Shown: piece by piece, positions 10,630-61,030 of the stretch
Layout: the number at the start of each line of letters is the position of its first letter
Numbering within the stretch: position 1 is the first letter of the stretch
NCBI GenBank assembly: GCA_029834535.1
Contig: JAQMWT010000370.1
Span: 202,572 to 266,571, forward strand
Direction of reading: 5' to 3'
Source of the DNA: Chrysophaeum taylorii
Lineage: Eukaryota; Sar; Pelagophyceae; Pelagomonadales; Pelagomonadaceae
DNA length: 64,000 bases
Program-made: the position numbers and the translations under genes
Notes under the pieces: model-generated
What the model was told of the DNA's origin: nothing
The model's input: only the letters and a program-made list of their open reading frames with translations
The model's database searches: none

Positions 10630-12192
10630 TCAGACTTTTTTTAAGAAGAGCCCGCGGCGGCGGCGGCGCAGGTTTTTTTTCGAAGAAGTCGGGAGTGGCG
10701 GTCGCAGCAGCACCACTGAAGGCTTGGCGGCGAGGTAGGCGCGCATGTTCGCCAAGGTGCGCCACTTGGAGTTCGAAACGCGACCCCACGGGTTGTCGTC
10801 GTCGAGGTCGAGGACGGCAGGGGCGAGGGCCCTGCCGATTCCGCGCCAGGCGTCGGGACCGAAGGGCTCGACGTGGCGGCCCCGGGGTCGCTGCTCGGGG
10901 GAGGCCTCCCTTGCCCTCGAGGCGGGGACGTGGTTTATCGTCTTGGGACAATGGTAGTTGCACTCTAGCGTGTAGGCGGCGACGAGGCCAGCGTATTCGC
11001 GCACGGCGACGCGCGCGGCGCCGCGCGCGCTCGAACCGTCGCAGTCGACGCGGAGCATGTGTTCTTTCGAGAAGTTGCATCCATCAAAGTCGAAATAAGG
11101 CGAGTTGACGGAGAGAAGGAGAGGGTAGAGTTTGTTTTGGACGACGTCCTTGGGATCGTCGAGAGCGTTTCCGTAAGCGAACGCGCCGCGCTTCGTCGCG
11201 TGGGCGTGGAGATCCAAGAAGAGATAGAGGGGGCAGGCTTTCGCGAGAATCATGAGCGCGGCCTGTGCCGGGTAGACCCGGTGGTCGGGCCACGGGTAGT
11301 AGACGCGATTGAGGTTGACGCCGCGCGCGTCGCGGCGGTAGTGTCCTCGCGCGACTCCGTCTGGATTAAGCATCGGGACGATGCGCCAAACGTACTTTGC
11401 TCTCAGTCGTTGCGACCGCGCGTCCTCGGCAAGAAGCACATCGAGCAGGCCTTCCAACACGAAACTGGCGGGTGTCTCGCCGGGATGGACTCTGGCCCCG
11501 ACGAGAATCGTCGGACGTCGACGACGAAACATAAGCTTCTCGGCCGGCTCGATGCCAGCTCTCGCGTCCGGGAAGAGCCAGGTCTCCTCATCACCTAAAA
11601 ACGTCTGGTCGTCTTCCTCAGATGAGGAGGAGGTATTTTTTGGGTCGGTAATTGTGACCAAGTCGACGCGACGACCCTCGAGACTACGGCAGAGCAGTTG
11701 GCGGCGGAAGTAAACGCCGCGCTTCGACGCTAGGACGCTCGCGTCTACGAGACTTTTCTCGAGATCCTCGCAACTATACGGATACGTAAAAGCGAAGGCT
11801 GCTTCTTCCTTGGCCTGGAATTCGTATTCCCACTGAACTTCGCCCGAATCGCGACGCTCGCGATAGTCTACGGGCGTCGAGAGCCTCGACCAGCCCGTTC
11901 CGTCGTCGACGACGACGCGAAACCCAAACCGGTACAAGGCGCCTTGCTTGTTCATATTCACGATCTTAAATTTCGATTTCTGATGCTTTTCCGCACGCAC
12001 CCGAAAGTGGAACCACGTGCAGCTGCGTGTCTCCTGAGGCGTGCCCTCGCAGTCGCGCGCGATTTCTAGCTGGTACGTCCCCTGGACAAATCTCGCGCAT
12101 TTCAAGTTGCCCGAATCGAAATCGCTCGAAAACACCAGCCCTTCGCACGCGTACTCCTCGAGCCGCACCAAAGAAGGTGGGGCCCCCGTCAT
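10630..12192 (-). CDS. Cytosolic carboxypeptidase, CCP5-like (tubulin deglutamylase)
   Basis: A 520-residue M14-family metallocarboxypeptidase of the Nna1/CCP group. The CCP N-terminal domain is clear at 20-200 (FSSDFDSGNL, YQLEIARDCEG, CTWFHFRVRAE, NMNKQGALYRFG), followed by the M14 domain: zinc ligands in HPGETPASFV (near residue 235), NPDGVARGHYR, GVNLNR, the third ligand in FLDLHAHATKRGAFAYGN (near 325), and the catalytic Glu in YTLECNYH (near 410). The FDFDGCNFS and TLECNYH context matches CCP5/AGBL5, which removes branch-point glutamates from polyglutamylated tubulin. It lacks the large internal insertion of the animal protein. It is transcribed divergently from the actin-related gene, 278 bases away. 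A basic C-terminal tail is unusual. Confidence 0.93.
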   Translation of the reverse strand: MTGAPPSLVRLEEYACEGLVFSSDFDSGNLKCARFVQGTYQLEIARDCEGTPQETRSCTWFHFRVRAEKHQKSKFKIVNMNKQGALYRFGFRVVVDDGTGWSRLSTPVDYRERRDSGEVQWEYEFQAKEEAAFAFTYPYSCEDLEKSLVDASVLASKRGVYFRRQLLCRSLEGRRVDLVTITDPKNTSSSSEEDDQTFLGDEETWLFPDARAGIEPAEKLMFRRRRPTILVGARVHPGETPASFVLEGLLDVLLAEDARSQRLRAKYVWRIVPMLNPDGVARGHYRRDARGVNLNRVYYPWPDHRVYPAQAALMILAKACPLYLFLDLHAHATKRGAFAYGNALDDPKDVVQNKLYPLLLSVNSPYFDFDGCNFSKEHMLRVDCDGSSARGAARVAVREYAGLVAAYTLECNYHCPKTINHVPASRAREASPEQRPRGRHVEPFGPDAWRGIGRALAPAVLDLDDDNPWGRVSNSKWRTLANMRAYLAAKPSVVLLRPPLPTSSKKNLRRRRRGLFLKKV

Positions 12193-12470
12193 CTTCTCCT
12201 CGAGATCTTATCTTGTATCTTTGCAACAACAACAACAACAACAACACACCACACAACAGAGGGGTAAAGAAAGAAAGCCGCCGGGCCCGCCGGTGCGCGC
12301 CTTTTTTATTTAAAATTATATTAACTCGATACTTTAGTAATAACTAACTACTAAAGTTAAAAAAGTTTGAAAATGCAAGAGGGCACACATCTTTTTTGGA
12401 TTCGTGATCCGTTGTGCGGGCCGTTTGCAGGAGGAGCAGCATATCTATCATCTCCAAAGAGAGGACAGAG

Positions 12471-13937
12471 ATGCCTGTGAGACGTGAAACGATTCGGAGC
12501 GAATCGGTCCGGAGCAAGAAGAAGGTCGCGCGGGTGTTCCGGAAGCGGGTCGCGAAGATCACCGGCGTGCGGCACTTCTTCGGGAAGACCGAGGCCGCCT
12601 TTGGGGGGGAGGAGCAGCCAAAGCCCCTGCCGAAGAAGGTCGTCGCCGCCGCCGTCGTCGTCGTCAAAGAAGAAGAAGAAGTTCTCCCGCCGCCGCCGAC
12701 GACGATAAAAAAGGAGGTGGACTCGAAAATCAACAACAAGGAGGCGCCCGTCCATGAGGAAAAAGAAGAAAGCTCTCTGCGGTTTTTGTCGGCAGAAGAA
12801 GAAGAAGAAGAAGAGGAAGTGGTGGGGGCGATCGCGGTCGACTGCGGGTCGCACGGGACGCGGGTCGGGGCGGCCGGAAGCGATAGTCCGTCGGTCGAAT
12901 GCCTGTCGATCGTCGGGACGCGCAAGACGGCCATGGCAGATGGACTGCTCCCGGACGTATCTTTCGGCGAAGACGCCGAACGGGCGTCTGCCGCGTACGA
13001 CTTGGCGATTCCCGTGGAGAAGAGCTTGGTCGTGGACTGGGACGGCGCGGAGAAGCTGTGGAAGCACGCGATCGGGTTGTCGGGATTTCGGTCGAGTCGG
13101 ATCATCGTGACTACGGGGGTTCTGGCGCCGAAAGCGACGCGCGAGCGATTAGTGAGGACGTGCGCGGCGATGGGGTTCGCGGACGTGCATTGCGGCGTCG
13201 CGCCCGTCCTGGCGCTGTTCGGCGCCGGGTATACGACGGGCTGCGTGGTTGATTGCGGTCTCGAATCCTCGCGCGTCGTTCCGGTGTACGACGGCTACGC
13301 GCTGCCTCACGCGATCGTCGTCGACCCTTCGCTCGGCGGTCTCTCGGTCGACGCCCACGCCGCTCGAATTTTGGAGACCGCGGGCCTCGCGTTCCGGAAC
13401 AACGAGGCCGCCCTCAGAGCGGGCGAGGTCCTCAAAATTCGAGCTGCGACCGTGGGTATTCCGGAAGCTGGAACGACCGTCGAACTCCCGCTTAAGTGTC
13501 TCGCGGCTTCGTCCCGGCACCGCCAGGTCGTGGAGATCGGCGTGGACGAGAGGGCGGCGATGGGCGAGACGCTCTTTGTGCCGCAGGTCGCCAACCGGTC
13601 GATCGAATCCCCTGGTCTCGCGGGCGTCGTCCTCGCGGCCGTTACCAAGTGTTCCATAGATCTCCGTCGCGCGATGTACGAGGGTATTTTTTTGGTAGGC
13701 GGCGGGTCCCTCATCCCCGGCCTCCCCGAGAGGCTCGACGTCGACCTCAACCACCTCGCCGCCGCCAACGTCGACGTTCAAGTCACCGCACTCGAGAATC
13801 GCAAGTTCGCCGCCTTTCTGGGCGCTTCCGTCGTCGCCGACCTCCCCGACTTTGCCTCCAACTGGATCTCCCGCGAGGACGCGGAGGACGACGTCGCCCT
13901 CGCGGCCCGCCTCGACCAGACCTCCTACAACTGTTAA
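12471..13937 (+). CDS. Divergent actin-related protein
   Basis: A 488-residue actin-fold protein. An N-terminal extension of ~115 residues is Lys/Arg- then Glu-rich. The actin core then follows: AVDCGSHGTRVG (phosphate 1), VEKSLVVDWDGAEKLWKHA, LAPKATRERLVRTC, TTGCVVDCGLESS (phosphate 2), VPVYDGYALPHAI, MYEGIFLVGGGSLIPGLPERL and ALENRKFAAFLGASVVAD, ending in a WISREDAED block that matches the actin C-terminus. The order and spacing are those of actin, but divergence is too high to assign an Arp class. The frame is open upstream with no ATG; the start is the ATG at 12471. Its stop overlaps the next, convergent gene by four bases. Confidence 0.88.
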   Translation: MPVRRETIRSESVRSKKKVARVFRKRVAKITGVRHFFGKTEAAFGGEEQPKPLPKKVVAAAVVVVKEEEEVLPPPPTTIKKEVDSKINNKEAPVHEEKEESSLRFLSAEEEEEEEEVVGAIAVDCGSHGTRVGAAGSDSPSVECLSIVGTRKTAMADGLLPDVSFGEDAERASAAYDLAIPVEKSLVVDWDGAEKLWKHAIGLSGFRSSRIIVTTGVLAPKATRERLVRTCAAMGFADVHCGVAPVLALFGAGYTTGCVVDCGLESSRVVPVYDGYALPHAIVVDPSLGGLSVDAHAARILETAGLAFRNNEAALRAGEVLKIRAATVGIPEAGTTVELPLKCLAASSRHRQVVEIGVDERAAMGETLFVPQVANRSIESPGLAGVVLAAVTKCSIDLRRAMYEGIFLVGGGSLIPGLPERLDVDLNHLAAANVDVQVTALENRKFAAFLGASVVADLPDFASNWISREDAEDDVALAARLDQTSYNC

Positions 13938-14525: not shown

Positions 14526-15011
14526 ATGATCGATGCGAAGTGGTCGTGTTCTTGCGGGAAGTGCGAGGTCGCCGTCAAGGGCGCCGTCATCGACGTGTGC
14601 GTGTGCCACTGCAACATCTGCCGGAAGTACACGTCGCAGCTGTTTAATGCGGAAGTCGTACTCCCGGATGGATGCGTCACGGTCACCAAGGGGTCTTTAG
14701 TTTCTCACCAAACGAGCCCAGCAATGCTACGGTATCACTGCGGAGGCTGCGGCTCCAATTTGTACGAAAAGGGGACGAGCTTTCCCCTCGAGTTCGCGCC
14801 GCTGGTTGCGGTATTGGGGAAAAACAACTCCGTGCCGAGCCACCTCGCGCCCAGAAAACACATCTTCTACGACGACCGCGTCGTCGACGTCAACGATGAC
14901 CTTCCCAAGTACGAGGGCTTCGACGTGGACTACGCGAAGGATCCCCCCGAAAGCATCCCTCCGATCCCCGATCACGTTTTGGCCGCGACAAAACTCGCGG
15001 TCACGATGTAG
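14526..15011 (+). CDS. GFA/CENP-V (Mss4-like) zinc-binding domain protein
   Basis: A 161-residue protein built on the GFA (glutathione-dependent formaldehyde-activating-like) fold. Zinc ligands are visible as CSCGKC near the N-terminus, CVCHCNICRKY around residue 30, and CGGCGSNLY around residue 75, the normal set for this family. The C-terminal part (HIFYDDRVVDVNDDLPKYEG) is also typical. Most family members have no proven reaction, so no function is assigned. A three-codon ORF overlaps just upstream (14518-14526). Its 3' end overlaps the convergent TTLL gene by 11 bases. Confidence 0.88.
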   Translation: MIDAKWSCSCGKCEVAVKGAVIDVCVCHCNICRKYTSQLFNAEVVLPDGCVTVTKGSLVSHQTSPAMLRYHCGGCGSNLYEKGTSFPLEFAPLVAVLGKNNSVPSHLAPRKHIFYDDRVVDVNDDLPKYEGFDVDYAKDPPESIPPIPDHVLAATKLAVTM

Positions 15012-16588
15012 CGGCGGTGGTAATAATGGACCGTTTGATGCGGCGGACGTAGTCGTGCAGAGGCCCGGGGGCGAGTTGCTCGTAGGCACCCGGGGTGGAA
15101 GGGGGCTCCCCGTAGCGCCGCGGGACCCCCAGGAGGATGAGGTTGAGGTCGGCGTTGAGGAGTCGTTCGTCGTACGCTCGGCGGGCCTCGGCGGCGCGCA
15201 GTCGGCGGTCCATGACCTCGACCAATCGCGCGCGGTCGTACCGGAGCGGCGCGACGAGACCCACCGTGTCGCGGATCATCGCCTCCTTGATGAGGCAATC
15301 GAGCCTCGTGTCGCGGGCCATCGACGGCGACGCGTTGACCTCCAGCAGCCACGGGCGCATTCCTTGGTCCAAAATCACGTCGTACCCAAAAACCTCGAAC
15401 GAGTTGGGTTGGTGCGGGATGCTGTCTTCGACACACACGAGAGACTTGAGCACGAGAATGCAAATCTCGCGCCACGCGTCGTCGAACCAACCTCTTTCCA
15501 CCGCGCGAGTTGCCTCGAGGCGCCGTCGTAGGTACTCGAGACTGCACTTGGTGCCGCCGGCTTCCTCGGGCGACGCGAACCGGAGGGGCGCACACGACTC
15601 GCCCGATTTCCGCTGGATCGACGCGTTCGTGAGGTGCACTATCTTGTCGCGAAGCGAATCGATCGAATATTCGCGAGTCGCGACGCGCGCGAAGCCCGAG
15701 CGGTAGATAAACACCTCGAGGGGAGAAAACGAGGTCACCAGCACGTACAACCGGAGGTCGAACTTGTGGGAATCGAGGAGCAGCGGCGCGGCGAGGTACT
15801 CCTGGATGACCACGGGCTCGGAGTAACGCACGTCTTCTAAATCGCTCGCGAGACTGATGCCTCGGCCGCGCGACAGCCCGACGGGCTTCATGATCCACAG
15901 ACTCCCCGGTGGTTTCGCGCGCCACGCGTCCACAAACCCGACGTAGTCCTGTGGCAACAGAAACGTCTTCGGTACGATGTCGAACGCCCCGGCCAGCCGG
16001 CGCGCCGTGCTCTCGGGCGCCACCGACACGAGCTTCTGGTACCGTCCGACGGCCCGCGCGAACAAGTCCTTCCGCGTCAGCTGCCGCGAATTCGGGTAGT
16101 GATTCACGCGCTGCCACGCAAGAAGGTGTGCGTAGTCGATTCTCGGCTTGGACCACGTCCACAGCAGGTTCCACGTCGTCTTCAGGCCCAGACCCGACGG
16201 CAGTTCCACCCAATCCGCGCACTGCCCCAGCACCTGGCTCACGATATCAAACACCTCGGGCCTCGACGAATTCACGCGAAAATGGAGCGCCGAGCTGTCG
16301 CCGGCGTACACTTCTTTGCTGCCATCGCTTTGTTCCCCAAACACCGCGCCGTAGTCGGCCATGATCGCCTCGAACGCCGCGTACAGACGCCACTGCCGCG
16401 CCATCGCCACCCGCACGTCCCCGGGTGGCGGCCGATGTCGCTTCTTCGCGCATCGAGACCACTGCGAGAAGATCGAACACCACTCGCCGTGCACCAGCCC
16501 GAAATCGATCATTTTTCTTTTGGCCAGGAACATCATCGGAGATAAACTACTTTTTTCGCCGCGACCCTTCTCGGCACCCTCTTCTTCC

Positions 16589-16624
<36 letters not shown>

Positions 16625-17850
16625 GTGGTGGTGGATAAAACCCCCTCAGTGATTCTATCCTCGCCGCGTGGAACAAGAGCAACCTCCTGGGTGTCCAACT
16701 CTGATTCTTTGATATTTTGAGGGCTGACACTTTCCTCTTTACCTTCGTCCAGTCTCGTCGTCTCTCGCGCGCGCGCAGAATCGTCGTTTTCAGCAGCAGC
16801 AGCAGCAGCTTGGGCATCCTGTTGTCCGGTCGGAGGCGATACCTGCGGTAGTTGTTCTTCTTCCTCCTCCTCGAGCCTCGCGTCTTCCGCAGTTACTTCC
16901 AGCTCATCATCATCATCAACAAAGGTCGTCGAAGGAGGTGCCTCTTCCGTGGGAACGACGACAACCACCTCAGCGCTCTCGGTCGTCGTCGTCGTCGTCG
17001 ATAGAGGTGCCTCGAGGCTCGCCGCGCTACTGGCAGCTTCCTCGTCGAACTTTGCTGGTGCCTCTGTTTCGCGTCGAGCATCTGCTCGAGGTTCCACGAT
17101 CGCCTCCTGCAGGGACTTTGGCGGTGTTTCGCGTCGAGCATCAGCTTCCACCGCCTCCTCCTCTTCAGGCTCGAGGGCCACTCGTAGTCTCGATAGCTCC
17201 AAGCCACTTTCAGCATCGCCTGGCGCTCCTTGTCGTTCCGAACAAGCGAAACTTGGGGCGTCCTCGTCGTCGTCGTCGCTGACCGACTCGCTGTCCGAAG
17301 AAGAAGAAGAAGAACAAGTAGGGCGCGGCGCGTTCGTTTTCCCGAGGCGACCCGCGCGGCGGCGGCGGCGGATCGCCCTCTGGTCGATGCGTTGCTGACG
17401 GCGCGCTTGCAGGCGCGATATCGCCGCTTTGCGGCGTTCCCGTCTCTGCTGGTCGACGGCGAGAACAACAGCTTTACCACGACAAATTTTCTTTCGTTGC
17501 TGCTGCTCGCGAGCCCGGCGCGCGAGGCCGCCGTCGCCGCCGGCGACGACAAAGGTCTTGCCCCAAGAGCTCGAGGAGGCCTCCTCCTCGAGCCGCCTCG
17601 TCGATTGGCCAAGAGATCGGCGTTTCCGGAGCTCTTCGCGAATCGCCTCGTCCTGGCGGCGGACGTAAGCTCCCAACGGTCCTTCGTCGTCCGCGAAGAG
17701 GTGCGAGCAGGACTGGAGGTGTTCGAGGCGATCGGTCGCGGCCCCGGGAATGTGGTCGAGCTGAATGAGGACATCATCGTCTGATGATGTCGTCGCGGCG
17801 GCGCCTGCTGGTGGTGGTGCTGCTGCTGCTGCTGCCCTCGCCGCGCGCAT
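15001..17850 (-). CDS. Tubulin ligase-like (TTLL) protein, probable tubulin polyglutamylase
   Basis: A 949-residue protein whose C-terminal ~430 residues form a TTL ATP-grasp domain: HYPNSRQLTRKDLFARAV, LPQDYVGFVDAW, WIMKPVGLSRGRGISL (ATP-binding lysine), VIQEYLAAPLLLDSHKFDLR then LYVLVTSFSPL, VHLTNASIQ, and FEVFGYDVILDQGMRPWLLE then VNASPSM. These are the standard TTLL blocks, and the closest resemblance by eye is to TTLL9/TTLL1-type glutamylases. The N-terminal ~500 residues are low complexity (poly-Ala, poly-Glu, Ser/Thr, Arg) with one less biased stretch near residues 25-75 (DHIPGAATDRLEHLQSCSHL). GGC repeats encode a poly-Ala run. Likely role: adding glutamates to axonemal tubulin. Divergent from the EF-hand gene, 141 bases apart. 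Confidence 0.9.
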
Positions 17851-24512: not shown

Positions 24513-26798
24513 TCATGAGATGGCGCACTTGCATGATGTGGCGGCGACCTGGTTCGCCACGGCGCCTGGCGCGAGGGTGGGGCACGGGGCGGTCACGGGA
24601 TCCTCGAGCAAGTTGAGCAAGGCAGCTGCTTTCATTCTGTTGCTGGTGAAATCGGCTTCCTCCCGGATAGACTCGAGGCCCCGGATGATCCCCTTGTACT
24701 TCAAGATCTTGGCCTTGAACTCGGGCTTGTACTTGACGAAGTGCCACAAGAGGTCAATAGAATCTCGGTCGGTGTCGTTGTGATAAGGTCTGATGACGAA
24801 GGGCACGATGACGTCGATGCCGTCTTCGGCGGCGATGTGATCGAGGTTCTTGGGGGTTATGGCGAGGCACACGAGCAAGCCGACGAAGGCGCGGCGGTCC
24901 TCGCGGTTGGAGGTCTTGAGGAGCCTGACGAGGGTTTTGATAGTTCCGGTTTCCGCGATGCGCTCGACGTTCCGCACCGAGGCTCGGGCGAGGACGGTCA
25001 GGAGGCGGGCCGTGATGCAGCGCGCGCGCCGGGGGCTGTTGCCCTGGAGGATGCCGACGAGGGCGGTGATCGCGTTGTTTTTGACGATCTCGTCGCAGAC
25101 GTGTTCGTCGCCCTTGACGAGGCCGACGAGCGTCTCTCCGGCGTGCTCGACGATGGACCAGTTCACGGCTTCCTCGCCGTGTTCGTCGGTTAGCGACTCG
25201 GCCGCGTCGACGAGTTGGACGAGGCGAATGGCCGCCGTCGACTTGTTGTCGGCTTTTTGGAACGCGTTCTGGAGGAGCGTCCGCGTGACCGCGAGCTGCG
25301 AGTCGAGGGTCTCGTTGTCGTGGCCCTCCCGCATGTGGATCAGCCGGAGTAGCGCATTGTAGGCCGGCTCTATGCGGAAGACGCACTTGCTGTCGTCCTC
25401 GGAACACACCTCCCCGTCAAACTCAAAGTCGTCGTTTTCGTTTTCGTCGTCGTCGTCGTTTTCGTCGTTTTCGTCGTTTTCGTCGCCCCCCCCGGACGTT
25501 GCCGTTGCGGCGGTGGCCAGTTCTCCGTCGGCGGCGTCGCCGGCAAAAGATTCTGCTTTAGCTCCCCCCATTCCTCCTCCTCCGAGGGCGTCGATGAGTA
25601 TGGAGAGGGCGGCGCCCTTGATCCGACTGGCGCGCTGCGCGGAGACCGCGTTCCGCCACGGTTCCAGGACCAATTCGTACTCGGCGAGCTGGATGACGGT
25701 CTTGGCGAGAGCGTGCTGCATGCGTCGTCGGCCGCTCGCGTACCAACGACCTTTGTGCGGGTGGTGGTGGTGGTTTCCGGGGGCGCCAGCGCTTTGAGCG
25801 TCGGAAGCGTCGGCGAGCATGAGGGTGAGGGCGCGGATCGAGAGGAGGAGGCGGTCGCCGTGGGCCTTTTGCTTGTCGGTCATTTGGGGCGGGCCGGGCA
25901 GGCCCTTGGCGCGCTTGGTCATGCTGAGGCGGGGGTCTATCGAGAAGGCGGCGGCCGAGGCGACGAGCTTCAAGACCGGTTCGACGAGGTCGGGACCCGA
26001 AGCGAGGACGGCGGCGCGATAGGGCTCGTCGCCGTCGTCGTCGAGGAGCTTCCAGAGCTCGAGGAGGGGCCGCAGGCTGTAGAGTTTGTCGTCGAAGGCC
26101 TGGAGTCTGACGACGACGGCGCAGACGACCTTCTCGTGGCGTTCGAGGACGTCGATTCTCGCCTTGGGCTGGGAGACGAGGGTCTTGAGGGCGCTGGAGA
26201 CGAGGTCGAGGTCGCCCTTGCTGGAGGCGCCCGAGAGGAGCATGTCGACGAAAGGCCCGGCGGCGCCAGCGGCCACGACGAGGTCGGCTAGCTTGTCGTC
26301 CGATCGGCACGCGTTCGCGATCTTGTTGGCGACGGCCGCCTTCTCCCGCGCGGTCGCGGTCGCGTCCCGGAGGCGGCCGATCCAGGTGCGGAGCTCGACC
26401 GGGAGCGAGATCCAGAGTTCGTTGTCGTTGGCCTCCTTTCTCACCACATCGGGCACATCGGGAGGGGGGTTGTCGACGCGTCTGGCCCGGGAGGGCGGAC
26501 CGTCGACGACGACGCCAAAGACCGGGTCGCCCGGATCCTTGAGGTTTTCGGCGTTAGCGATCCGGAGCTGGCAGACCACCGGGACGCCCTCGAGGTACTC
26601 CGGGACCTCGAGCCAGCCGTGTTCGTCGTCGAGATACTCGAGCTCGAGGGAGAGCCGTCTCTCTTCGAGCTGTTCCTCGAGGCGGAGGGCCCGGGCCACC
26701 GCGTCGTGGATGTCGTCGACCGTGAGCGCCAAGACCCCCGCGACTTTTTTTTTCGTGCGCCGATTTGGCCTTTCGACCAGCAGCGTATATTGCTGCAT
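24513..26798 (-). CDS. Armadillo-repeat-like protein
   Basis: A 761-residue, mostly helical protein. The N-terminal ~110 residues are a compact region with ELEYLDDEHGWLEVPEYLEG. Alpha-solenoid repeats follow from about residue 150, of armadillo/HEAT type (AAVANKIANACRS, LVVAAGAAGPFVDMLLSG; later NNAITALVGILQGNSPRRAR and IAETGTIKTLVRLLKTSNRE, with IAAEDGIDVIVPFVI). A Gly/Asp/Glu/Asn-rich acidic linker of ~50 residues interrupts the solenoid near residue 470. The frame is open 84 bases further upstream but without ATG, so an upstream exon is possible. A scaffold role is inferred. Divergent from the receptor-PARP gene (205 bases). Confidence 0.8.
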   Translation of the reverse strand: MQQYTLLVERPNRRTKKKVAGVLALTVDDIHDAVARALRLEEQLEERRLSLELEYLDDEHGWLEVPEYLEGVPVVCQLRIANAENLKDPGDPVFGVVVDGPPSRARRVDNPPPDVPDVVRKEANDNELWISLPVELRTWIGRLRDATATAREKAAVANKIANACRSDDKLADLVVAAGAAGPFVDMLLSGASSKGDLDLVSSALKTLVSQPKARIDVLERHEKVVCAVVVRLQAFDDKLYSLRPLLELWKLLDDDGDEPYRAAVLASGPDLVEPVLKLVASAAAFSIDPRLSMTKRAKGLPGPPQMTDKQKAHGDRLLLSIRALTLMLADASDAQSAGAPGNHHHHPHKGRWYASGRRRMQHALAKTVIQLAEYELVLEPWRNAVSAQRASRIKGAALSILIDALGGGGMGGAKAESFAGDAADGELATAATATSGGGDENDENDENDDDDENENDDFEFDGEVCSEDDSKCVFRIEPAYNALLRLIHMREGHDNETLDSQLAVTRTLLQNAFQKADNKSTAAIRLVQLVDAAESLTDEHGEEAVNWSIVEHAGETLVGLVKGDEHVCDEIVKNNAITALVGILQGNSPRRARCITARLLTVLARASVRNVERIAETGTIKTLVRLLKTSNREDRRAFVGLLVCLAITPKNLDHIAAEDGIDVIVPFVIRPYHNDTDRDSIDLLWHFVKYKPEFKAKILKYKGIIRGLESIREEADFTSNRMKAAALLNLLEDPVTAPCPTLAPGAVANQVAATSCKCAIS

Positions 26799-27003
26799 GG
26801 GAGGACACACTGCCGCCCAGATGATGATGATGTCGTGGCTCTGCCCGAAGCTTCCGGGCAATTGTGTAAGGGCAAGGTGCACATATATGAAAAATCTGCT
26901 GGGGACCTCCTTGCAGGCAAACCTATATCCAAATTAGGATTCGGTCACACCTTGCAGTTGTTGGGTGATCGTAATTAATTCGTTCATTCAATCGATAATC
27001 AGG

Positions 27004-30000
27004 ATGCGGCGGCGGCGGTATGATGGGATCTTCTTCATCATCTCCTGGATGGTGTGGTCCCAGGCGGCGGCGCAGCAAAGCAACTCGACGACGACGACGC
27101 TCATCGTGACGTCTCAGGTCCTCGGGGCGGCCTATCCGGTCGACAGCTCGGGGACCGAGTGTGCCGCAGAGACGTATCTCGCGACGCCCTGCGCGTGCTT
27201 TGGAGGGGCGGCGCGGCGCGCCGCCTTTTTGGAGGATGATGATGTCGTCGGCATCGACATGGGGGGGTATTTTTTTGGGTCGGGTCTCTTCTACGAGACC
27301 TTCGAGGGCGGGGGCTCGGCGCGGCTCTTCAAGGCATCGGGGTACGCGGCGCGCGGCCTGAACTCGAGGGACTTTTCGGTCGACGATTCGGCGCTCGCGT
27401 CGCACCTCAACGCGTCGGGCGTCCCGACGGTAGCGTCAAATTTCAACGCCACTTTTCTGGACGATGTGGTGGTTCCCTTCGCGGTCAGCGGAGGCGTGGC
27501 GGTCGCGTCGCTCTTGGACGACGATGCGGGAGGCGGGAACCTGCTGTCGTTCGAGCGGTCGGTGATAGACATCCTCGGTCAACTTCAAGGAACCGACGAG
27601 TTGAGGGTCGTTCTGATCCCGGGCGGCATCCCCGAGACGGACGTGATCGAGCTGCTGCCCGCGGAGGGCCACGAGCACGAGGATTCCCTCGACCGCCAGG
27701 AGAGCGCGGTGGTGGCGATCGCCGCGAAATTTCCGTTCGACGTCGTCGTCCTCGACGGTTCGACCGAGCTGGGGGCGAGATTTTCGACGCCGCGGATTAT
27801 CGAGTCGTGGCTGAACGGCGAGGTCGCCGTGGTCGCGACCCCCGCCGCCGCGGATCGGGGCACGCGGATCGCGCGAATCCGCGTGATGTCGCGGGATGGC
27901 TTTTACAATTCGGCGACCGTCGAGGAAATAGTTTTAGATTGCGACGACGTTCCGCGGGAGGCGTCGCGACAGTTGCTCGACGACCTCAAAGCCGAGGTCG
28001 ACGCGGATATCGCGACGCGACCCGTTGGGTGGATAGACGACGACCTCCAGGAGGTTGGGTGCATCCGGAACTCTGTTGTTGAGGACGACGGCGGCCCGGA
28101 GTGCGGGTGCGCGGTCGCCGAATGCGACGTCGGCAACCTCGCGGCCGACGCGGTGCGGTGGTTGGCATCCACAGACGTTGCGCTCGTTCTCGGCGCGGAC
28201 CTCGGGGACGCGAGGATCGAGCGGTACCAAGTCACGGCCGGCGCGATGCTCTCGGTCGCGCCCTTCCTCGGGGACGAGATCGTCGTGGTCCGCGACGTGA
28301 CGGGACAACAACTCAAATCCGTGATCGAAGCATCGTTCGCGACGGAGCTCCGGTGCCCGACCAGTCGCAACGAAAGCTCGGTTCTCCAGGTGTCCGCGGG
28401 GCTTGAGGTGACGTGGTTCTACGACACCGAGGCGACCCCCCTGCTGGGCGACGTTTTCTTCGAGGGTACGGTCGTCGACGACGACGAAGTCTTCGACGTC
28501 GCGACCTCGAGCGACCTTTTGGTTCAACAACAACAACAACAACAACAACACCGTTGCGGTGCGTGGTTGAACAACAACAACAACAACAACAACGTCAAGC
28601 TGGGGGTCCCGACCTTCTCGGCCATCGTCCAGTACATGTCGGAGGTCCACGGGACGCCCGATTCAGCGCTCGTGCCGTCGCGGGAGTACGCTTTACCGCG
28701 CATTTCGCAGCTCGAAGACCGGTCTCGAGTCCACGTCGCTCTTCTCTGCGGCGACGATCGGTTCTGGCTCGAGCACTGCGACCACGCGTATCACGCGATC
28801 ACGCAGATCGACAACCACCACGACGGCGTCTTCGACGACGTCCTCCCGAACGTGAAGCTGACCCCCCACAACTTCCACATCGGGTGCTCGGAGGGACGAG
28901 CCTACGACGGTCTCGTTTCCCTCGCGAATCAAATTGCCCCCGATCCCATCAGCCTCGTGATCGCTGGGTGTTCGAACGACGTTGCCGAAATCGGATCCGT
29001 CGAGGCGCGTTCTCGAATGGCCGTCGACGCGCCCGCGACCGGAGGCGACTACGTCATCATATCGCCGGGATCGACGGCGCCGTCTCTCGCCGACGACGAG
29101 GCTTACCCGTACGTCGCGCGGATCACCACGCCCGACAGCGAGAACGGGCTCGGGGTTGCAAGGATGGCCGAGTTTTACGGATGGGGTCGCGTCTGCGTCG
29201 TCCACGAGGATTCTCTCTTCGCCACGGAGATGGCGCGGGCCTTCGTCGAGAAGTTCCGACTCTCGAGCCCGAATTTCGCGGGCGACGAGGCCAACGAAGT
29301 GCTGGGGGGGGGAAGGTGCGTCTCGACGAACGCCGCGTGCGAACTCGAGATCGAAGACCCCATCACGAACCAAGCCGTCGGGATATCGGTGTCGCTCCGG
29401 GACTTTCACGGAGGTCGCCTGAACATGACGGACGTCGTGCTCGCGGTCGCCGAGACCGGGGCGAAAATCGTGTTGCTGGCTGTTTTTGAGGCGCTGCAAG
29501 AGATCTACGAGGCCGTCTCCGAACTCGACGTAAACCACGGCGTTGGGTACGCGTGGATTTCGGCCTTTCCTTCCGAAGACTCGCTCATCGATAGGGCGAC
29601 GGGCGAGACGAACAACGCGGCCGTCGACGGCGCGGAGGGCGCCGTAGGCTTCTCGGAGCGGACGCCTTCCTACGGCGAATGGAACGCCACGACAAACTAC
29701 CTCGATGCCTGGGCCGAAGTTTCTGGTCTCGAAGGCTGCGAAGGGGATCCGCTCGAGTGCTGCGACCAAGACCGGGATTATTTTTGCGACTTTGACGGCG
29801 TCGACGCGAGCGTCACGGGATTTGGCCTCTACTATGCGGATTCCGTATACCTCTACGCTTCGGCGCTCCACTCGCTCGGCGAAACAGATGCCACAAAACT
29901 CGACCCCTCGGTCGTGTACGACAGAATCAAGGAGACGGCGATCGACGGCGCGACCGGCCACATCGTCCTCGAGGACGCCTCGGGCGATCGTCTCGGCGTC

Positions 30001-32229
30001 TTCGACTGGCTCAACCTCGTCGTGACCTACCCGAGCCGGAACCGCCGTCGAAAACTCTCGGCCGTCGAGCTCCAGACCGGGACGGCCGAGTTTGTGGTCG
30101 TCGGCGAGTACGACGCCGAATCCGACGCGGTCACCAAGTCGCAGGACGTCATTTTCCCCGGTCTCACCACAAATCCCCCCGCGGACCGCGACCCGGCGGT
30201 GGCCGACGGCTCGTCGAAGAACAACAACAACAACCGCACGGCGGCGAGGCTCAACTTGATCATCTTCGTCCTCCTCGGCGTGATCGGCTCGCTCTGCGCC
30301 GCGGGCCTCTACGCCCACTACCGCCGCCGCACGCCCATGTACGACGGCGACCTCGACAAGCTCTTCCGAATTACGCGAACTTTCGACCCCGTCTCGGGTC
30401 TCGTGCAGCCGCTGCCCAAGGAAGACACGAGCGATTACGGACGCGAACCGCCGAGCAGGGAACGGAGCCAAGACGAGAAGTTCGACCAGCGATCCGAAAA
30501 AGAGGAGGACGACGAGGAGCACGTCGTTTTGTTGGGGAGGATCAATACCACCGCCGCCGCCGCGGCGACCGAAGAGCCGCCGCAACCTCGACTACCCCAC
30601 CTCGCGCGGCAGTTTGCGGTCGACGCGTGGTACTGGCTCGGGGACGACGACGACGACGACGCCTGGCACCCGTACGACGAAGATCTCCAAAACACCATAA
30701 CCCGCGCGTGGCGCGACTTTCACGAGCAGGTTGGTCACTTCCTCGACGACGACGAGAATCCCTCCTCGCGCAATTTGAGCAGTAGTAGTACTTTTGGCGG
30801 CGGCGCCGCGGCCGCGGCCGCCGCGGCGGGAACCCCGATCCTGACGCCGCACAACTCGATCGAGTTCGAGTTGGATGGCGGCGCCAAACACAAGATCGTC
30901 TTTTCGGCCGATCCAACGCAGGTCGACTTCGCCCACATCAACACCGAAACCTTCCGGACGCGTCCAGTCAAGCGCCGGCCGTTGGCGCGTCGCGTCTCGA
31001 TGACGTGGTACTTCGAGGAAACCCCGCGCAAGACCCAAGCCGAGTGGGAGCCCGAGCCCGAATGGACCATCCCCCCCCTCCCCGGGACCGCGTGGCGCGC
31101 CTTCTCGGACCGGGCCCAGCCCGCGCTCTCGGCCGCGTACGCGAGCTGGCTCGCGGGCTTCTCCGAGCCCCAGGTCTACCTCAACGACGAGTGGAACAGG
31201 ACGTCCCAATTCGACGCCTTCAAGTGCTACGAGGTCAACGTCCAGACCCTCGTGCAGACCCGCGTCGCCTCGGGCTTCGAGCGACCCATAAAAATCGTCT
31301 TTGCCAAGCCCCCGCCGACCGAGGCGACGGCGGCTGCCGAACTCGACGGTCGTCTCCGGGCGACGGCGCGGCCGGATCGCGTCGGCTGCGACGCCTGTCT
31401 TCCTCTCGAGATCGACGACGTCGTGGCGCTCAAGACAACCCTGGGCGGCGGGGACGTCGACGACGACGGCGAGTGGGGCCTCGGTGTTGTCGTGAGCGAT
31501 AAGACGCGACGCACTCCCGCCGGCGCTCGCGAAGGCTACTTTCCGCTCGCCTGCGCCACCAAATTAGTGGATCTCCCCGCCATCAAGGGCCTCGAGGCCT
31601 TCCGCCAGCCCCGCTGGTGGGACGTCGGCAACGGCGAGCCCGTCCAGCGCCGCACCGTAATGCGCGACTCGGACGAATGGCGTGCCGTTTCGGACGGTTT
31701 CCACCTCGACGACTGGAGCATCCACGACGTCGAGCGCATCCAGGACGTCTTCAAGTGGCAGCAGTACGGCATTGCCGTATCGCAGGTCCGCAAGCGCTCC
31801 AAGACGACCTCCGCCACCGCCGACCTCTTCGGATCCAAGGTCTGGCTCGACCACGAACGCGTCCCGGTGTATCACGGCACGCGCCGCGAGAACGTCGACA
31901 AGATAATCAAAGGAGGCTTCAAGCCCGGCTTCGCGAGCCCCGAGGCTCGCTACGGCCGCGGCGCCTACTTTGCCGTCGCCTCGCAGCGCGCTCTTTTTGC
32001 ACAGTGGGCGACTCCGGACGACGACGGCATCGTCCACGTCTTTCTCTGCCGCATCGTCTCCGGAAAATACCGCCGCGGTGCCAACGCCGACAAGGACGCC
32101 GGCGAGGACTACGACACCACCGTCGACGATACCAAACAGCCCCAGATCTTTGTCACCTACGACGTCCAGCAGGCCTATCCGCTCTACTACGTCCAGCTCA
32201 AGAACAACCTTGACCCCGTCTCCTTCTAG
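27004..32229 (+). CDS. Transmembrane receptor-PARP fusion (5'-nucleotidase-like, ANF-type ectodomain; WWE, SH3-like and PARP cytoplasmic domains)
   Basis: One uninterrupted 1741-residue frame. A signal peptide (IFFIISWMVWSQAAA) precedes a calcineurin-like/5'-nucleotidase-type module (about 25-260: CFGGAARRAAFL, GIDMGGYFFGSGLFYE, ASGYAARGLNSRDFS); the metal-binding NHEFD of active enzymes reads NSRDF, so activity is doubtful. A 5'-nucleotidase C-terminal domain follows (360-480: VGNLAADAVRWLA, MLSVAPFLGDEIVVVRDVTG). Poly-Gln and poly-Asn runs interrupt it near 510-530. A type I periplasmic-binding/ANF ligand-binding region spans 570-1000 (DYVIISPGSTAPSLADDEAY, MAEFYGWGRVCVVHEDS). A single span lies at 1083-1105. 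Inside are two WWE-like domains (about 1200-1320 and 1333-1430), an SH3-like segment (about 1460-1520) and a PARP catalytic domain (1610-1735): YHGT, YGRGAYFAVASQRALFAQWA, YDTTVDD, IFVTYDVQQAYPLYYV. The HYE position is not Glu, which suggests mono-ADP-ribosylation. Confidence 0.88.
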   Translation: MRRRRYDGIFFIISWMVWSQAAAQQSNSTTTTLIVTSQVLGAAYPVDSSGTECAAETYLATPCACFGGAARRAAFLEDDDVVGIDMGGYFFGSGLFYETFEGGGSARLFKASGYAARGLNSRDFSVDDSALASHLNASGVPTVASNFNATFLDDVVVPFAVSGGVAVASLLDDDAGGGNLLSFERSVIDILGQLQGTDELRVVLIPGGIPETDVIELLPAEGHEHEDSLDRQESAVVAIAAKFPFDVVVLDGSTELGARFSTPRIIESWLNGEVAVVATPAAADRGTRIARIRVMSRDGFYNSATVEEIVLDCDDVPREASRQLLDDLKAEVDADIATRPVGWIDDDLQEVGCIRNSVVEDDGGPECGCAVAECDVGNLAADAVRWLASTDVALVLGADLGDARIERYQVTAGAMLSVAPFLGDEIVVVRDVTGQQLKSVIEASFATELRCPTSRNESSVLQVSAGLEVTWFYDTEATPLLGDVFFEGTVVDDDEVFDVATSSDLLVQQQQQQQQHRCGAWLNNNNNNNNVKLGVPTFSAIVQYMSEVHGTPDSALVPSREYALPRISQLEDRSRVHVALLCGDDRFWLEHCDHAYHAITQIDNHHDGVFDDVLPNVKLTPHNFHIGCSEGRAYDGLVSLANQIAPDPISLVIAGCSNDVAEIGSVEARSRMAVDAPATGGDYVIISPGSTAPSLADDEAYPYVARITTPDSENGLGVARMAEFYGWGRVCVVHEDSLFATEMARAFVEKFRLSSPNFAGDEANEVLGGGRCVSTNAACELEIEDPITNQAVGISVSLRDFHGGRLNMTDVVLAVAETGAKIVLLAVFEALQEIYEAVSELDVNHGVGYAWISAFPSEDSLIDRATGETNNAAVDGAEGAVGFSERTPSYGEWNATTNYLDAWAEVSGLEGCEGDPLECCDQDRDYFCDFDGVDASVTGFGLYYADSVYLYASALHSLGETDATKLDPSVVYDRIKETAIDGATGHIVLEDASGDRLGVFDWLNLVVTYPSRNRRRKLSAVELQTGTAEFVVVGEYDAESDAVTKSQDVIFPGLTTNPPADRDPAVADGSSKNNNNNRTAARLNLIIFVLLGVIGSLCAAGLYAHYRRRTPMYDGDLDKLFRITRTFDPVSGLVQPLPKEDTSDYGREPPSRERSQDEKFDQRSEKEEDDEEHVVLLGRINTTAAAAATEEPPQPRLPHLARQFAVDAWYWLGDDDDDDAWHPYDEDLQNTITRAWRDFHEQVGHFLDDDENPSSRNLSSSSTFGGGAAAAAAAAGTPILTPHNSIEFELDGGAKHKIVFSADPTQVDFAHINTETFRTRPVKRRPLARRVSMTWYFEETPRKTQAEWEPEPEWTIPPLPGTAWRAFSDRAQPALSAAYASWLAGFSEPQVYLNDEWNRTSQFDAFKCYEVNVQTLVQTRVASGFERPIKIVFAKPPPTEATAAAELDGRLRATARPDRVGCDACLPLEIDDVVALKTTLGGGDVDDDGEWGLGVVVSDKTRRTPAGAREGYFPLACATKLVDLPAIKGLEAFRQPRWWDVGNGEPVQRRTVMRDSDEWRAVSDGFHLDDWSIHDVERIQDVFKWQQYGIAVSQVRKRSKTTSATADLFGSKVWLDHERVPVYHGTRRENVDKIIKGGFKPGFASPEARYGRGAYFAVASQRALFAQWATPDDDGIVHVFLCRIVSGKYRRGANADKDAGEDYDTTVDDTKQPQIFVTYDVQQAYPLYYVQLKNNLDPVSF

Positions 32230-32599: not shown

Positions 32600-33080
32600 T
32601 TAAAATGCCATCTTCTTGTAAAAGTAGGAGACGCCGGTGGCTTTCTTCTCCTTCTTGACGGTCGTCTGGTTGAGGTATCGCTCCTCGAAGACTTTTTTGA
32701 TCGCCTTGCGGGCCTCCTGCTTGCTCTCGGTCTTGCCCTCCTTGTACTCTTCGATAATTTTTTTGAGGTCCAAATCAACAACGTAACGAGTCGGCATCAG
32801 GTGCGAATAGTTGATGTTCTTCAGGAAGGGCTTCATTTTGGTGCGCTTGGCGATCTTCTCCTTGGACATTCCCCGCGTCACTTTGCGGGGGTATCGATCG
32901 ATCCCAGCGACGATGGCGTAACCGAATTTTCGGTCGGGAGTTCCGTCGTCAAACGTCTTCACCACGACGCCCTTCCGCCCAGCGAACCGACCGGACAGCA
33001 CGATCACGACCTTGCCGGACTTTATGCTGCAGGGCGGGGGTGATTGTGGACGACAACGCCATTATTACTCACATGCCCAT
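32600..33080 (-). CDS. RPL27: Large-subunit ribosomal protein eL27 (two exons)
   Basis: Complement of 33073-33080 (exon 1, eight coding bases) joined to 32600-33026 (exon 2); 144 residues, close to the usual 136. Exon 1 encodes MG plus two bases of the third codon. The 46-base intron starts GTGAGT and ends CTGCAG. The joined N-terminus reads MGIIKSGKVVIVLSGRFAGR, matching the KOW-type start of eL27. Other hallmarks are VAGIDRYPRKVT, KIAKRTKMKPF, NYSHLMPTRY and a C-terminal FYKKMAF. It is part of the 60S ribosomal subunit. A Helitron-derived repeat starts about 125 bases upstream of the start codon. Confidence 0.95.
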
Positions 33081-57885: not shown

Positions 57886-60800
57886 ATGCGCCACGCCCTC
57901 CTCCTCATTATCATGGCAACGACCGACGCGCCGTCCTCCTCCGCCACCGCCGCCTACAGAGACCTCGCCGACGACGAAATTCTCGCGCTCTGGCGCGATC
58001 GCAACGAACGATGCGAACCCTGTTCGGCCGAGGGATGCGACGCCTGCTGCCGGACCGGCCGCCGATTCTCGACGAAGCACGATGGCTACACGTATGTCTA
58101 CGGCCGCCAACGTCGAATCAACGCCGCGCGCCTCCTCCGGACCGACGCGAACGACGCGATTCCGGCGCCCGTCGGACAGGTACGCACGGTCAACGGTCCT
58201 CCGCAGCCTCGCGTCGCCCCGGCCGCGCTCGCTCCCGACGCGACCTTGCCCGCCGCCACCCGCGAAACCGCCGTCGACGACGCCGCGGCTAAGTATCGGA
58301 GCTTCACCGATGCCCAGATCCTCGACTTCTGGCAACACCGCGAGGACGCGTGCGCGTCGTGCGCGGGACGCGGCTGCGACACCTGCTATCGAACGGGGTA
58401 CCGTTTTACGTTCAAGCACGCCGGATACAGATACGTCCGCGAACGCCACCGCCGCCTCGCCGCGTGCCACGCTTCGCCCGAGGAGGCCGCGGCTCAGAGA
58501 GACGCGCACGCGAACAGCCAACGGCAGTCGCGAGCGCGCGCCGACGCGCGGGGCGAGCGCGACGCTCGACTGGCGACCGATGCGGCCGAGCGGCGCGAAT
58601 CGCGCAACCGCGCCGACGAACGAGGGGACCGCGACGCCCGGCTCGCAACCAACGCCCAGGAACAACGCGAGTCGCGCCAACGAACCGACGACCACGGGCA
58701 GCGCGCCGCGCGCCTCGCCGCCCACGCCGCCGAACAGCGACGCGCCCGCCAAAATGTCGTCAACGAAGTGCGGCGACGCCCGACCTTCGTCGCCCGCTGC
58801 GCCCTCGAGGACTTCGACGACAGAAACGTCCCCACGCACGACGCCGGCGCGATGGACAAAGTCTGTCCGTACTGCTACGCGCTTTACTGGAAGTCCGAGG
58901 AGACGACCAGAGGCACATACAACCGGTGCTGCTCGGGGGGCACGATCGTGCTTCCCGACCCTCCGAACCCGCCTCCGGAGTTCGTCCATCTCATCACGAC
59001 ACCCCACGCCACCGGCATCGCCTTCAGAGCCGACACCCGCAAGCTCAACAACGCTTTCACGTTCGCGAGCATGCAGGTCCACGACGAGCGCCCGTTCGCC
59101 AGAAGCAGCACGACCTCGACCAATCGGTGCCCCCTCAGCGCCCTGCGCATCTCGGGGCAAATACACCACCGCCTCGGCTCCTTGCGGCCGCGGGCCGGCG
59201 AGGCGCCGATGTTCGCGCAGACGTACCTGCTCGATCCCGGCACGCAACTCCAGCACCGTCTCCAGTCCTCGCTCCTGAACGATCACGTCGTCCGCACCGT
59301 CCAGGACGTCATCCTGGCCAACAACCGCTTCGTCCGAACGTTTCGACACGCCGACGCCTACATCAACAGCGCGAACGCCGACGCAACCAACGCCCGAATC
59401 GTCATCCACGCGGAACAAAGGCCCGCCGACCACCACGCGCGACGCGGAAACGCGCAGGTCGTCGACGAGGTCGCCATGATCGTCCTCGGCGACGAAGAGA
59501 CCGCCGTGCCGAACCGCGACATCGTCGTCCACTGCGAGGGCGCGCACGGGCGGCCCGAGCTCGAGCTCATCAGCATCTACAACGGGCAGCGCGATCCCCT
59601 TCACTTCACCCTCATGTTCCCCACGGGGCGGCCCAGCGGCTACAACATCGGAATCAACAAGGTTAACCCCGAGGACGGGACCGCCCGCCTCACCACCATC
59701 ACGCCAAAGGAATATTACGTTTATCGCGCGCACCTCCGCGCGCCAAAACCCGGACAAACCACCTGCCGGCCCCGAGGACGAGACCAACAGAGAGACCAAG
59801 AGCGAGACCAACAGAGACGCAACAACAACACTTCGCCGGTACTGGCCCTCGCCCTCCACGTTTTTCCTCATCCACCGCCTCAACCGCTTGAGCCACGAGT
59901 ACTTCCTCGACGGCGCCGTCAAGATGGAGGTGTCGCGGATCGAGTGGTGCCGCCGGAACCAAAGAAGCTGCGCGCCGATCTCTACTTCGGTCTCCAAGAC
60001 GCCGTCGCGGATGGCGAGGCGGGCAACGCGGGCAAACGCAGCATCCTCCCGTCCACGTTCAAGGGGTCGCAGCGAGAGATGCGCGCCGCCTACCAGGACG
60101 CCATGGCCATCGTCAGAGTTTGCGGCAGGCCCTCATTCTTCATTACGTTCACGTGCAACCCGAAGTGGGACGAAATCATGGCCGAGCTCTACGAGCACGA
60201 GGAGCCCCACATGCGACCCGACCTCATCATCCGCGTCTTTCACATTAAGCTCGCCGAGCTCCTCCGCGACCTCACCGAGCGCCTGTCCTCGGCCGCGTGC
60301 ACGCGTACACGTACACGATCGAGTACCAGAAGCGGGGCCTGCCCCACGCCCACATCCTCCTCATCCTCGACAGCCGAGACGACATCGCCGCCGACGACGT
60401 CGACAAGGTCGCCTGCGCAGAGTTCCCCGACCCGAACGACCCGAGACAAAGGAACTCCACCAAATCGTCGTCAACCACATGCTCCACGGGCCCTGCGGCC
60501 GCGACTACCCGTCGTGCCCCTGCATGCAGGACGGAGAATGCTCCAAGCGCTTTCCCAAAGAATTCCAACGGCACACGACCGTCCCGGAGGACAACTACGT
60601 CCAATACCGCCGCCGCTCGCCCCAAGACGGCGGCCGCACCTATACCAAGGTCATAAACGGCCGCCCCTGCGTCATCGACAACAGATGGATCGTCCCCTAC
60701 AACCCCTGGCTCCTCAAGAAATACAAGACGCACCTCAACGTCGAGATCTGCTGCACCATCCACGTCTGCGCCTACCTGTACAAATATGTCTTCAAGGGCC

Positions 60801-61030
60801 CGGACAGCGCAACGATCACGATCCGGCAAGACACGTCTCGCGGCCACCGCGACCCCCCCCCCCTGGACGAGATTTCGACGTACCAGACCGGCCGCTACAT
60901 TTGCTCGACGGAGGCCCTCAACCGCATCTTCGGCAACGAAACCCACGCGAGGCACCCCGCCGTCTTCCACCTCGCCGTCCACCTCGAAAACGGCCAGCGG
61001 GACTACTGGCAGGATTCCGACGACCCGCGA
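57886..61030 (+). pseudogene. Helitron N-terminal region and HUH Rep domain, frame-broken
   Basis: The N-terminus carries two Cys modules, CEPCSAEGCDACCRTG and CASCAGRGCDTCYRTG (C-x2-C-x4-C-x2-C), each followed by RF.KH.GY.YV. Three ~23-residue Arg-rich repeats (ARGERDARLATDAAERRESR and two relatives) come next, then a zinc-like CPYCYALYW and the Helitron_like_N block (DEVAMIVLGDEE, LHFTLMFPTGRPSGYNIGIN, LPSTFKGSQREMRAAYQDAM, FITFTCNPKWDEI). The Rep HUH motif is GLPHAHILLIL (His at 60345 and 60351). The tyrosine motif is AYLYKYVFKGPDS near 60770-60808, with both tyrosines present. Frame order is 1, 2 (about 59836), 1 (about 59962), 3 (about 60290), 2 (about 60450), 3 (about 61030), so single-base indels have broken it. 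Confidence 0.88.

Follow-up and report, generated by a model that had tools for sequence, protein, structure and literature searches.

The gene at positions 27004 to 32229 of a 64,000-nucleotide stretch of Chrysophaeum taylorii DNA (the window, which is the end of contig C370) is predicted to encode a receptor whose cytoplasmic output is a PARP. The preferred reading, with a probability of roughly 0.7, is a ligand-gated mono-ADP-ribosyltransferase receptor, i.e., a type I single-pass membrane protein in which an extracellular ligand would control a cytoplasmic WWE-PARP part. Enzyme-linked receptors are a known kind of protein, with kinases, phosphatases, and cyclases as their known outputs. 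The window protein belongs to this kind and its output class looks new, while calling it categorically new would require activity. Searches of the open-access literature turned up no published receptor-PARP, or other receptor with an ADP-ribosyltransferase output, and absence from print is unproven.

The coding frame runs from ATG to TAG (1741 codons) and is uninterrupted; no stop separates the membrane span from the WWE region, and no intron has to be assumed. The first-pass annotation had described, at these same coordinates, one open frame joining an ectodomain, a span, and a PARP, and this description holds. When the whole protein was scanned, 5_nucleotid_C, ANF_receptor, WWE, and PARP each exceeded the curated Pfam cut-off; Metallophos, the fifth domain that the annotation had proposed to look for, gave no match. 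A scan of NCBIfam returned nothing up to an E value of 0.1. One strong span (residues 1085–1103, mean hydropathy 2.45) lies between the ANF and WWE regions and is followed by AHYRRR. Since this span is single and the N-terminus is signal-like, a type I topology is suggested, with an ectodomain of ~1080 residues and a cytoplasmic part of ~640. The resulting succession of signal sequence (by eye), ectodomain, one span, and enzyme domain is that of a single-pass enzyme-linked receptor, with the side of the membrane inferred. Five cysteines are invariant in nine aligned ectodomains of the family and none in ten aligned cytoplasmic parts; in 21 family proteins (P0001–P0021), there are 2.16 cysteines per 100 residues in the outer part versus 1.02 in the inner part.

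The PARP domain matches Pfam above the cut-off over residues 1571–1699, and its nearest solved relatives are PARP15, PARP14, and PARP10. Alignments place the catalytic triad at H1624 (31873–31875), Y1655 (31966–31968), and I1715 (32146–32148). This is an H-Y-I triad, with a residue other than Glu at the third position, which we take to be the mono-ADP-ribosyltransferase type; PARP10 reportedly has such activity, to go by the title of a study. The triad motifs recur across P0001–P0021, with Tyr in 21 of 21 proteins, His in 20, and I, V, or M as the third residue in 20. The third-motif exception, P0008, is due to the ending of its gene model, and the genomic frame carries the motif. The protein without the His segment (HGT) is P0019, whose near-twin P0013 has it. 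The triad of the window protein is intact.

Two WWE-like domains and an SH3-like segment had also been proposed in the first-pass annotation. Both WWE copies are borne out. The whole-protein scan gave a WWE match of 1.1e-7 over two stretches, and the copies, when cut out and scanned alone, scored 23.5 and 22.9 bits against a cut-off of 21.1, with the match of the first copy confined to a portion of the profile. Seven WWE stretches of the family, used as a profile, match the WWE domains of Deltex, DTX1, TRIP12, HUWE1, and PARP11. All seven share the same W, Y, Q, and R, and residues of this kind presumably contact ADP-ribose in other WWE domains. As for the SH3-like segment, it is conserved in the cytoplasmic alignment and matches SH3_2 below the cut-off in four relatives; the segment of the window protein, scanned alone, had no Pfam match.

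The outer part begins with the 5′-nucleotidase-like module of the first-pass annotation, which stands in part. Its C-terminal substrate domain is present (5_nucleotid_C). The N-terminal half, cut out and scanned, has no Pfam match, Metallophos included, and is recognized through the family ectodomain profile, which matches the solved 5′-nucleotidase of Thermus (2z1a) and CD73. The catalytic motifs are missing. For reference, a canonical 5′-nucleotidase of the same genome (C366) has GD, GNHD, TH, and GHDHH; aligned with it by eye, none of nine family members, including the window protein, has these motifs. The alignment with 2z1a agrees for the stretch shown. The Asp of the first motif is retained, again by eye, in two of the nine (P0008 and C606). 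Because the metal and catalytic motifs are lost in all nine, the module is read as a binding fold, and it is probably a pseudo-enzyme serving binding or spacing. The flytrap part that follows has its best ANF_receptor match at residues 612–752, and with the family profile it is GABA-B receptor 2 and the metabotropic glutamate (mGlu) receptors that are matched. It contains a conserved S/T-A-P stretch. Because this lies at what we take to be the amino-acid ligand site of GABA-B and mGlu receptors, an amino-acid-like ligand is, by analogy, no more than a fair first guess.

The gene is a member of a family in its own genome (70.8 Mb in 697 contigs were searched). The search gave 21 PARP profile matches at E 0.001. 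At fourteen loci, the window included, nucleotidase-like and ANF pieces occur together with PARP or PARP-like ones; the 13 others consist of nine long frames and four split loci. Eight long frames (the window, C379, three copies along the single contig C323, C125, C129, and C242) follow the order 5_nucleotid_C, ANF, span, WWE, PARP, the last being above the cut-off in all eight. Some other domains score below it, namely 5_nucleotid_C in C323b and C323c (20.0 and 20.1 of 23.6) and WWE in C379 (18.4 of 21.1). The frames of C149 and C606 join the family by blastp and have Pfam matches to 5_nucleotid_C, WWE, and ANF (the last below the cut-off in C606), with no Pfam match to PARP. The C149 frame is broken within the PARP, and the deposited gene model P0006 has a complete one. 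At the split loci, C439 (three genes) and C388 (one), matches to 5_nucleotid_C, ANF, and PARP are spread over several frames, which are presumably exons; a span is seen in all three C439 copies. In C389 and C673, a PBP_like_2 domain (phosphate-binding-protein type) is followed by span, WWE, and PARP, and the end of the C389 frame diverges from the family past the third triad position. The ectodomain of the window protein is 30–45% identical to those of other members. Its PARP is 68% identical to that of C379, 32–35% to those of C125, C129, C242, and C323, and 25–30% to those of the broken C149 frame and C606. Among deposited proteins, the paralogue P0002 is CTAYLR_001206, and ANF and PARP occur together in gene models CTAYLR_001206, 008075, 008111, 006066, and 008929.

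Nei-Gojobori ratios of nonsynonymous to synonymous substitution (dN/dS) for the whole gene, in three pairs of close paralogues, are 0.30 for C323a/b, 0.34 for C323a/c, and 0.29 for C125/C129. Across 15 domain-by-pair cells they range from 0.10 to 0.41, some cells holding few changes (for C323a/b, the linker has six and the PARP four) and gene conversion between neighboring copies not being allowed for. Of the five parts, the PARP ranks lowest in two pairs and third lowest in the remaining one. Purifying selection seems to act on both sides of the membrane, as is expected if both halves work.

Relatives outside the genome were sought by short-word searches, which miss some relatives. The first two protein searches returned only the window protein and one paralogue; they also missed clear paralogues in the genome, so this result carries little weight. 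Scans of viral contigs with the cytoplasmic and ectodomain alignments found no relatives. A query with the PARP region of paralogue C125, under a length filter of at least 0.55 times the 1952-residue query, returned 19 long proteins among 534 candidates of suitable length, four from C. taylorii and 15 foreign. All 19 have an ectodomain family together with PARP, a figure that does not describe PARPs in general since the filter selects long proteins; 18 have WWE above the cut-off and 18 a strong span. Rescanning of 14 of the 15 foreign proteins put PARP and an ectodomain family above the cut-off in all 14 and WWE above it in 13 (20.0 of 21.1 in P0011). The domains of P0015 are precomputed only. 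One internal span with hydropathy of at least 2.0 occurs in 20 of P0001–P0021, and P0009 has a weaker stretch by eye.

The foreign ectodomains are varied. P0005, a metagenome protein on a separate 17,244-base contig, has 5′-nucleotidase and ANF in the same order as the window protein; a nucleotidase domain was not seen in the other 14. ANF is present in P0007, P0011, and P0016; Peripla_BP_6 with EGF-like in P0009; NMT1_2 with CUB in P0010; Cache in P0012, P0015, and P0018; CUB in P0013, P0014, and P0019; PBP_like_2 in P0017 and P0021; and leucine-rich repeats (LRR) with a furin-like domain, the latter below the cut-off, in P0020. The sequences of P0009–P0011 lack a starting Met and are probably incomplete. 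The label on P0019 is Aureococcus anophagefferens; because P0013 hardly differs from it, the pair is not independent. A 2010 survey places A. anophagefferens among organisms without an identifiable PARP (PMC2964712), with which the WWE and PARP of P0019 are in conflict. Because the ectodomains differ (ANF, Peripla_BP_6, PBP_like_2, NMT1 with CUB, CUB, Cache, LRR), the PARP looks like an output that receptors of various kinds can reuse.

A tree of the cytoplasmic parts (28 rows, 478 columns) leaves nine of 25 inner branches open and groups the proteins largely by ectodomain type, with eight changes for eight labels. Since the grouping follows ectodomain type, the tree fits a rare exchange of sensors over one cytoplasmic module. 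The intended outgroup (C122, C322, and C495, labelled soluble) was unusable, with two members on very long branches and C322 beside the 5′-nucleotidase and ANF group (91/95). C322 (L038:1121-3220, + strand) is a 700-residue frame with WWE that aligns by blastp to residues 1309–1736 of the window protein and has no Pfam PARP match.

The first-pass annotation had inferred a receptor that crosses the membrane once and signals through a PARP in the cytoplasm, and as regards architecture the family, P0005, and 14 further foreign proteins strongly support this. It had taken the gene singly and left membrane PARPs aside; the gene has proved to be a family member, a unique gene being ruled out by the paralogues and foreign relatives, and membrane PARPs, PARP16 among them, are known.

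The explanation proposed is as follows, its steps beyond the architecture being modelled on class C receptors and on receptor cyclases, and its surface location, dimer, ligand, activity, and signaling being inferred. The outer part would combine a catalytically dead 5′-nucleotidase-like fold with a Venus-flytrap (ANF) domain, whose ligand is most likely a small molecule from outside the cell. Closure of the flytrap on its ligand would rearrange a receptor dimer through the single span and juxtamembrane stretch, and the rearranged dimer would alter the activity of the cytoplasmic PARP. This PARP would move single ADP-ribose units from nicotinamide adenine dinucleotide (NAD+) to itself and nearby proteins. 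Through its tandem WWE domains the receptor probably binds partners, ADP-ribose-marked or other, for recruitment or feedback, and these domains would so read or restrict the mark. In the wider family, one cytoplasmic module (juxtamembrane stretch, WWE, SH3-like, PARP) would be set on varied extracellular sensors.

Known systems share parts of this design. Receptor guanylate cyclases such as the natriuretic peptide receptors likewise have an ANF ectodomain, one span, and a cytoplasmic enzyme, and the dimer logic is likely common to both. They differ in output, which is WWE-PARP in the window protein, where Pfam finds no guanylate cyclase or kinase-homology domain. Class C G protein-coupled receptors (GABA-B, mGlu) have the Venus-flytrap domain, as the profile matches reflect, but seven spans instead of one, and 7tm_3 is absent from the window protein. 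The CD73/UshA fold of 5′-nucleotidases is shared through 5_nucleotid_C and the N-terminal profile match, whereas the catalytic and metal motifs are lost in the window family. Clade 3 PARPs, i.e., PARP14, PARP15, and PARP10 and the WWE-PARPs PARP7, PARP11, and PARP12, resemble the window protein in PARP sequence, H-Y-I type, and WWE before PARP; in contrast to this membrane-spanning protein, the available sections of a survey (PMC4245714) describe no ligand-binding ectodomain for them. According to the same sections, PARP16, an Amphimedon PARP12-like protein, clade 3 proteins of Rhizaria, and a rice SRO protein combine PARP with a membrane span. The sections describe no sensor ectodomain for these, and the span of PARP16 is C-terminal (PMC4245714).

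Several observations weigh against the preferred reading. The signal peptide was called by eye and the span by hydropathy alone, and a weaker hydrophobic stretch (residues 810–828, 1.84) appears within the ANF region, only at a laxer threshold. N-glycosylation motifs do not favor the outer side, with 0.54 per 100 residues versus 0.60 on the inner side in the 21 proteins. One paralogue, C606 (L023:3740-8344, − strand), has a PARP-like region without the catalytic His segment; it is likely a pseudo-PARP receptor, and at least this member of the family may work without catalysis.

With respect to location, the ectodomain might instead sit in the lumen of the endoplasmic reticulum (ER) or a vacuole, with the PARP reporting lumenal state. 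A signal peptide and span do not tell which membrane is involved. The precedent is PARP16, a protein reported to be tail-anchored in the ER and to work together with IRE1 and PERK in the unfolded protein response (PMC3634511). Its C-terminal span and the lack of any ligand-binding ectodomain in the sections describing it (PMC4245714) make this precedent a distant one, and a seven-span receptor of the same genome also carries PBP_like_2. The usual role of these ectodomain families is to bind ligands outside the cell or in the periplasm, which likewise counts against an internal membrane, and the idea, although the foremost alternative, is considered unlikely. Next in rank, and unlikely too, is a ligand-regulated scaffold whose WWE and PARP folds serve to bind ADP-ribose or partners, with weak catalysis or none. 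C606 would suit it, as would the presence of RCD1, an inactive plant PARP, among the distant structure matches and the description of plant SRO proteins as inactive (PMC4245714). Set against this are the triad motifs in 20 or 21 of 21 proteins, the low dN/dS of the PARP, and the best matches being PARP15, PARP14, and PARP10, i.e., mono-ADP-ribosyltransferases.

Two further candidates fare much worse. The first-pass annotation had suggested that nucleotides, or a product of the ectodomain, might be sensed, the latter of which would call for an active ecto-nucleotidase coupled to product sensing. The clear 5_nucleotid_C match and the Asp kept in P0008 and C606 speak for it, but the loss of GD, GNHD, TH, and GHDHH in nine of nine members led to the rejection of an active enzyme; together with the missing Metallophos match and the 14 of 15 foreign proteins without a nucleotidase domain, this makes such a coupling very improbable. 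Least credible of all is an artefact, either an assembly join, which had been named as a danger at the outset, or read-through of two adjoining genes, and nothing was found in its favor. Seven further contigs hold nine long frames with the same order (PARP above the Pfam cut-off in seven of the nine), P0005 repeats it on its separate contig, and five gene models combine ANF and PARP; assembly error is refuted by these paralogues and independent contigs. A ligand-gated mono-ADP-ribosyltransferase receptor is therefore retained as the best explanation, and the features of its gene are collected in Table 1.

Table 1. Features of the receptor-PARP gene, in window positions.
Feature	Position	Strand	Evidence or remark
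Whole receptor-PARP coding frame	27004..32229	+	1741 residues plus stop, intron not required; identical 1741-residue entry in the protein collection
Signal peptide-like N-terminus, residues 1–23 (approximate limits)	27004..27072	+	By eye: RRRR, then GIFFIISWMVW, then AAA-Q
5′-nucleotidase N-terminal fold-like segment without catalytic motifs, residues 30–360 (approximate)	27091..28083	+	Family profile match to 2z1a; motif comparison with the canonical enzyme of the same genome
5_nucleotid_C domain, residues 366–503	28099..28512	+	Pfam 8.6e-14
ANF_receptor/Venus-flytrap ligand-binding region, residues ~574–1030 (approximate)	28723..30093	+	Pfam 7e-23; profile matches to GABA-B receptor 2 and metabotropic glutamate receptors
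Membrane span, residues 1085–1103, C-terminal side basic	30256..30312	+	Hydropathy; span at the same place in ten aligned family members
First WWE domain, residues ~1209–1320	30628..30963	+	Pfam 23.5 bits alone, limited to profile positions 3–29 of 67; remainder by cytoplasmic family alignment
Second WWE domain, residues ~1345–1430	31036..31293	+	Pfam; profile of seven family WWE stretches
SH3-like segment, residues ~1451–1520	31354..31563	+	Weak: SH3_2 below cut-off in relatives; conserved in cytoplasmic alignment
PARP catalytic domain, residues ~1554–1735	31663..32208	+	Pfam 1.6e-10; PARP15 4.2e-14; family profile 1.3e-53

A 630-residue antisense frame within the gene (28693–30585, − strand) is probably a by-product of GC-rich codons. 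The frame just downstream (32600–33007, − strand) resembles, by eye, ribosomal protein L27, and the divergent gene upstream (24516–26882, − strand) has an armadillo-like match, to ARMC5, that does not reach the cut-off. Farther away, matches to the tubulin-tyrosine ligase family (15004–17850, − strand), M14 carboxypeptidase of the cytosolic type (10630–12189, − strand), and the actin family (12414–13934, + strand) are clustered; the first two may both concern modification of tubulin tails. Near the contig end, a mobile element has a Helitron helicase-like N-terminal domain (57886–61131, + strand, 1.8e-29).

Other receptors of the genome have related ectodomains. For instance, L031:1732-6000 (+ strand, C695) sets a PBP_like_2 ectodomain on a 7tm_3 class C core, i.e., the same sensor as in C389 and C673 with a seven-span output. 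L024:4286-7825 (− strand, C675) has a 5′-nucleotidase and ANF ectodomain, and the frames scanned downstream of it show hydrophobic segments and no Pfam match. L033, L034, L035, L039, and L040 are large ANF receptors that carry ephrin-receptor-like repeats and may represent a further unusual type of receptor; L033 and L040 have a weak to moderate TRP-channel match.

On a broader view, the odds slightly favor receptor ADP-ribosyltransferases being a general class of enzyme-linked receptor, present in pelagophytes and in certain other protists. Sensors that can be exchanged for one another (Venus-flytrap, PstS-like phosphate-binding, Cache, CUB, LRR) would there sit on one conserved cytoplasmic WWE-PARP module, and outside nutrients or signals would be read directly as NAD+-dependent mono-ADP-ribosylation of proteins. 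Versions with PBP_like_2 could sense extracellular phosphate directly, and this possible phosphate-sensing version is directly testable. Some members of the algal group of C. taylorii can cause harmful coastal blooms. If the reading is true, intracellular ADP-ribosylation would be a primary readout of the outside world, in parallel to what receptor kinases do with phosphate.

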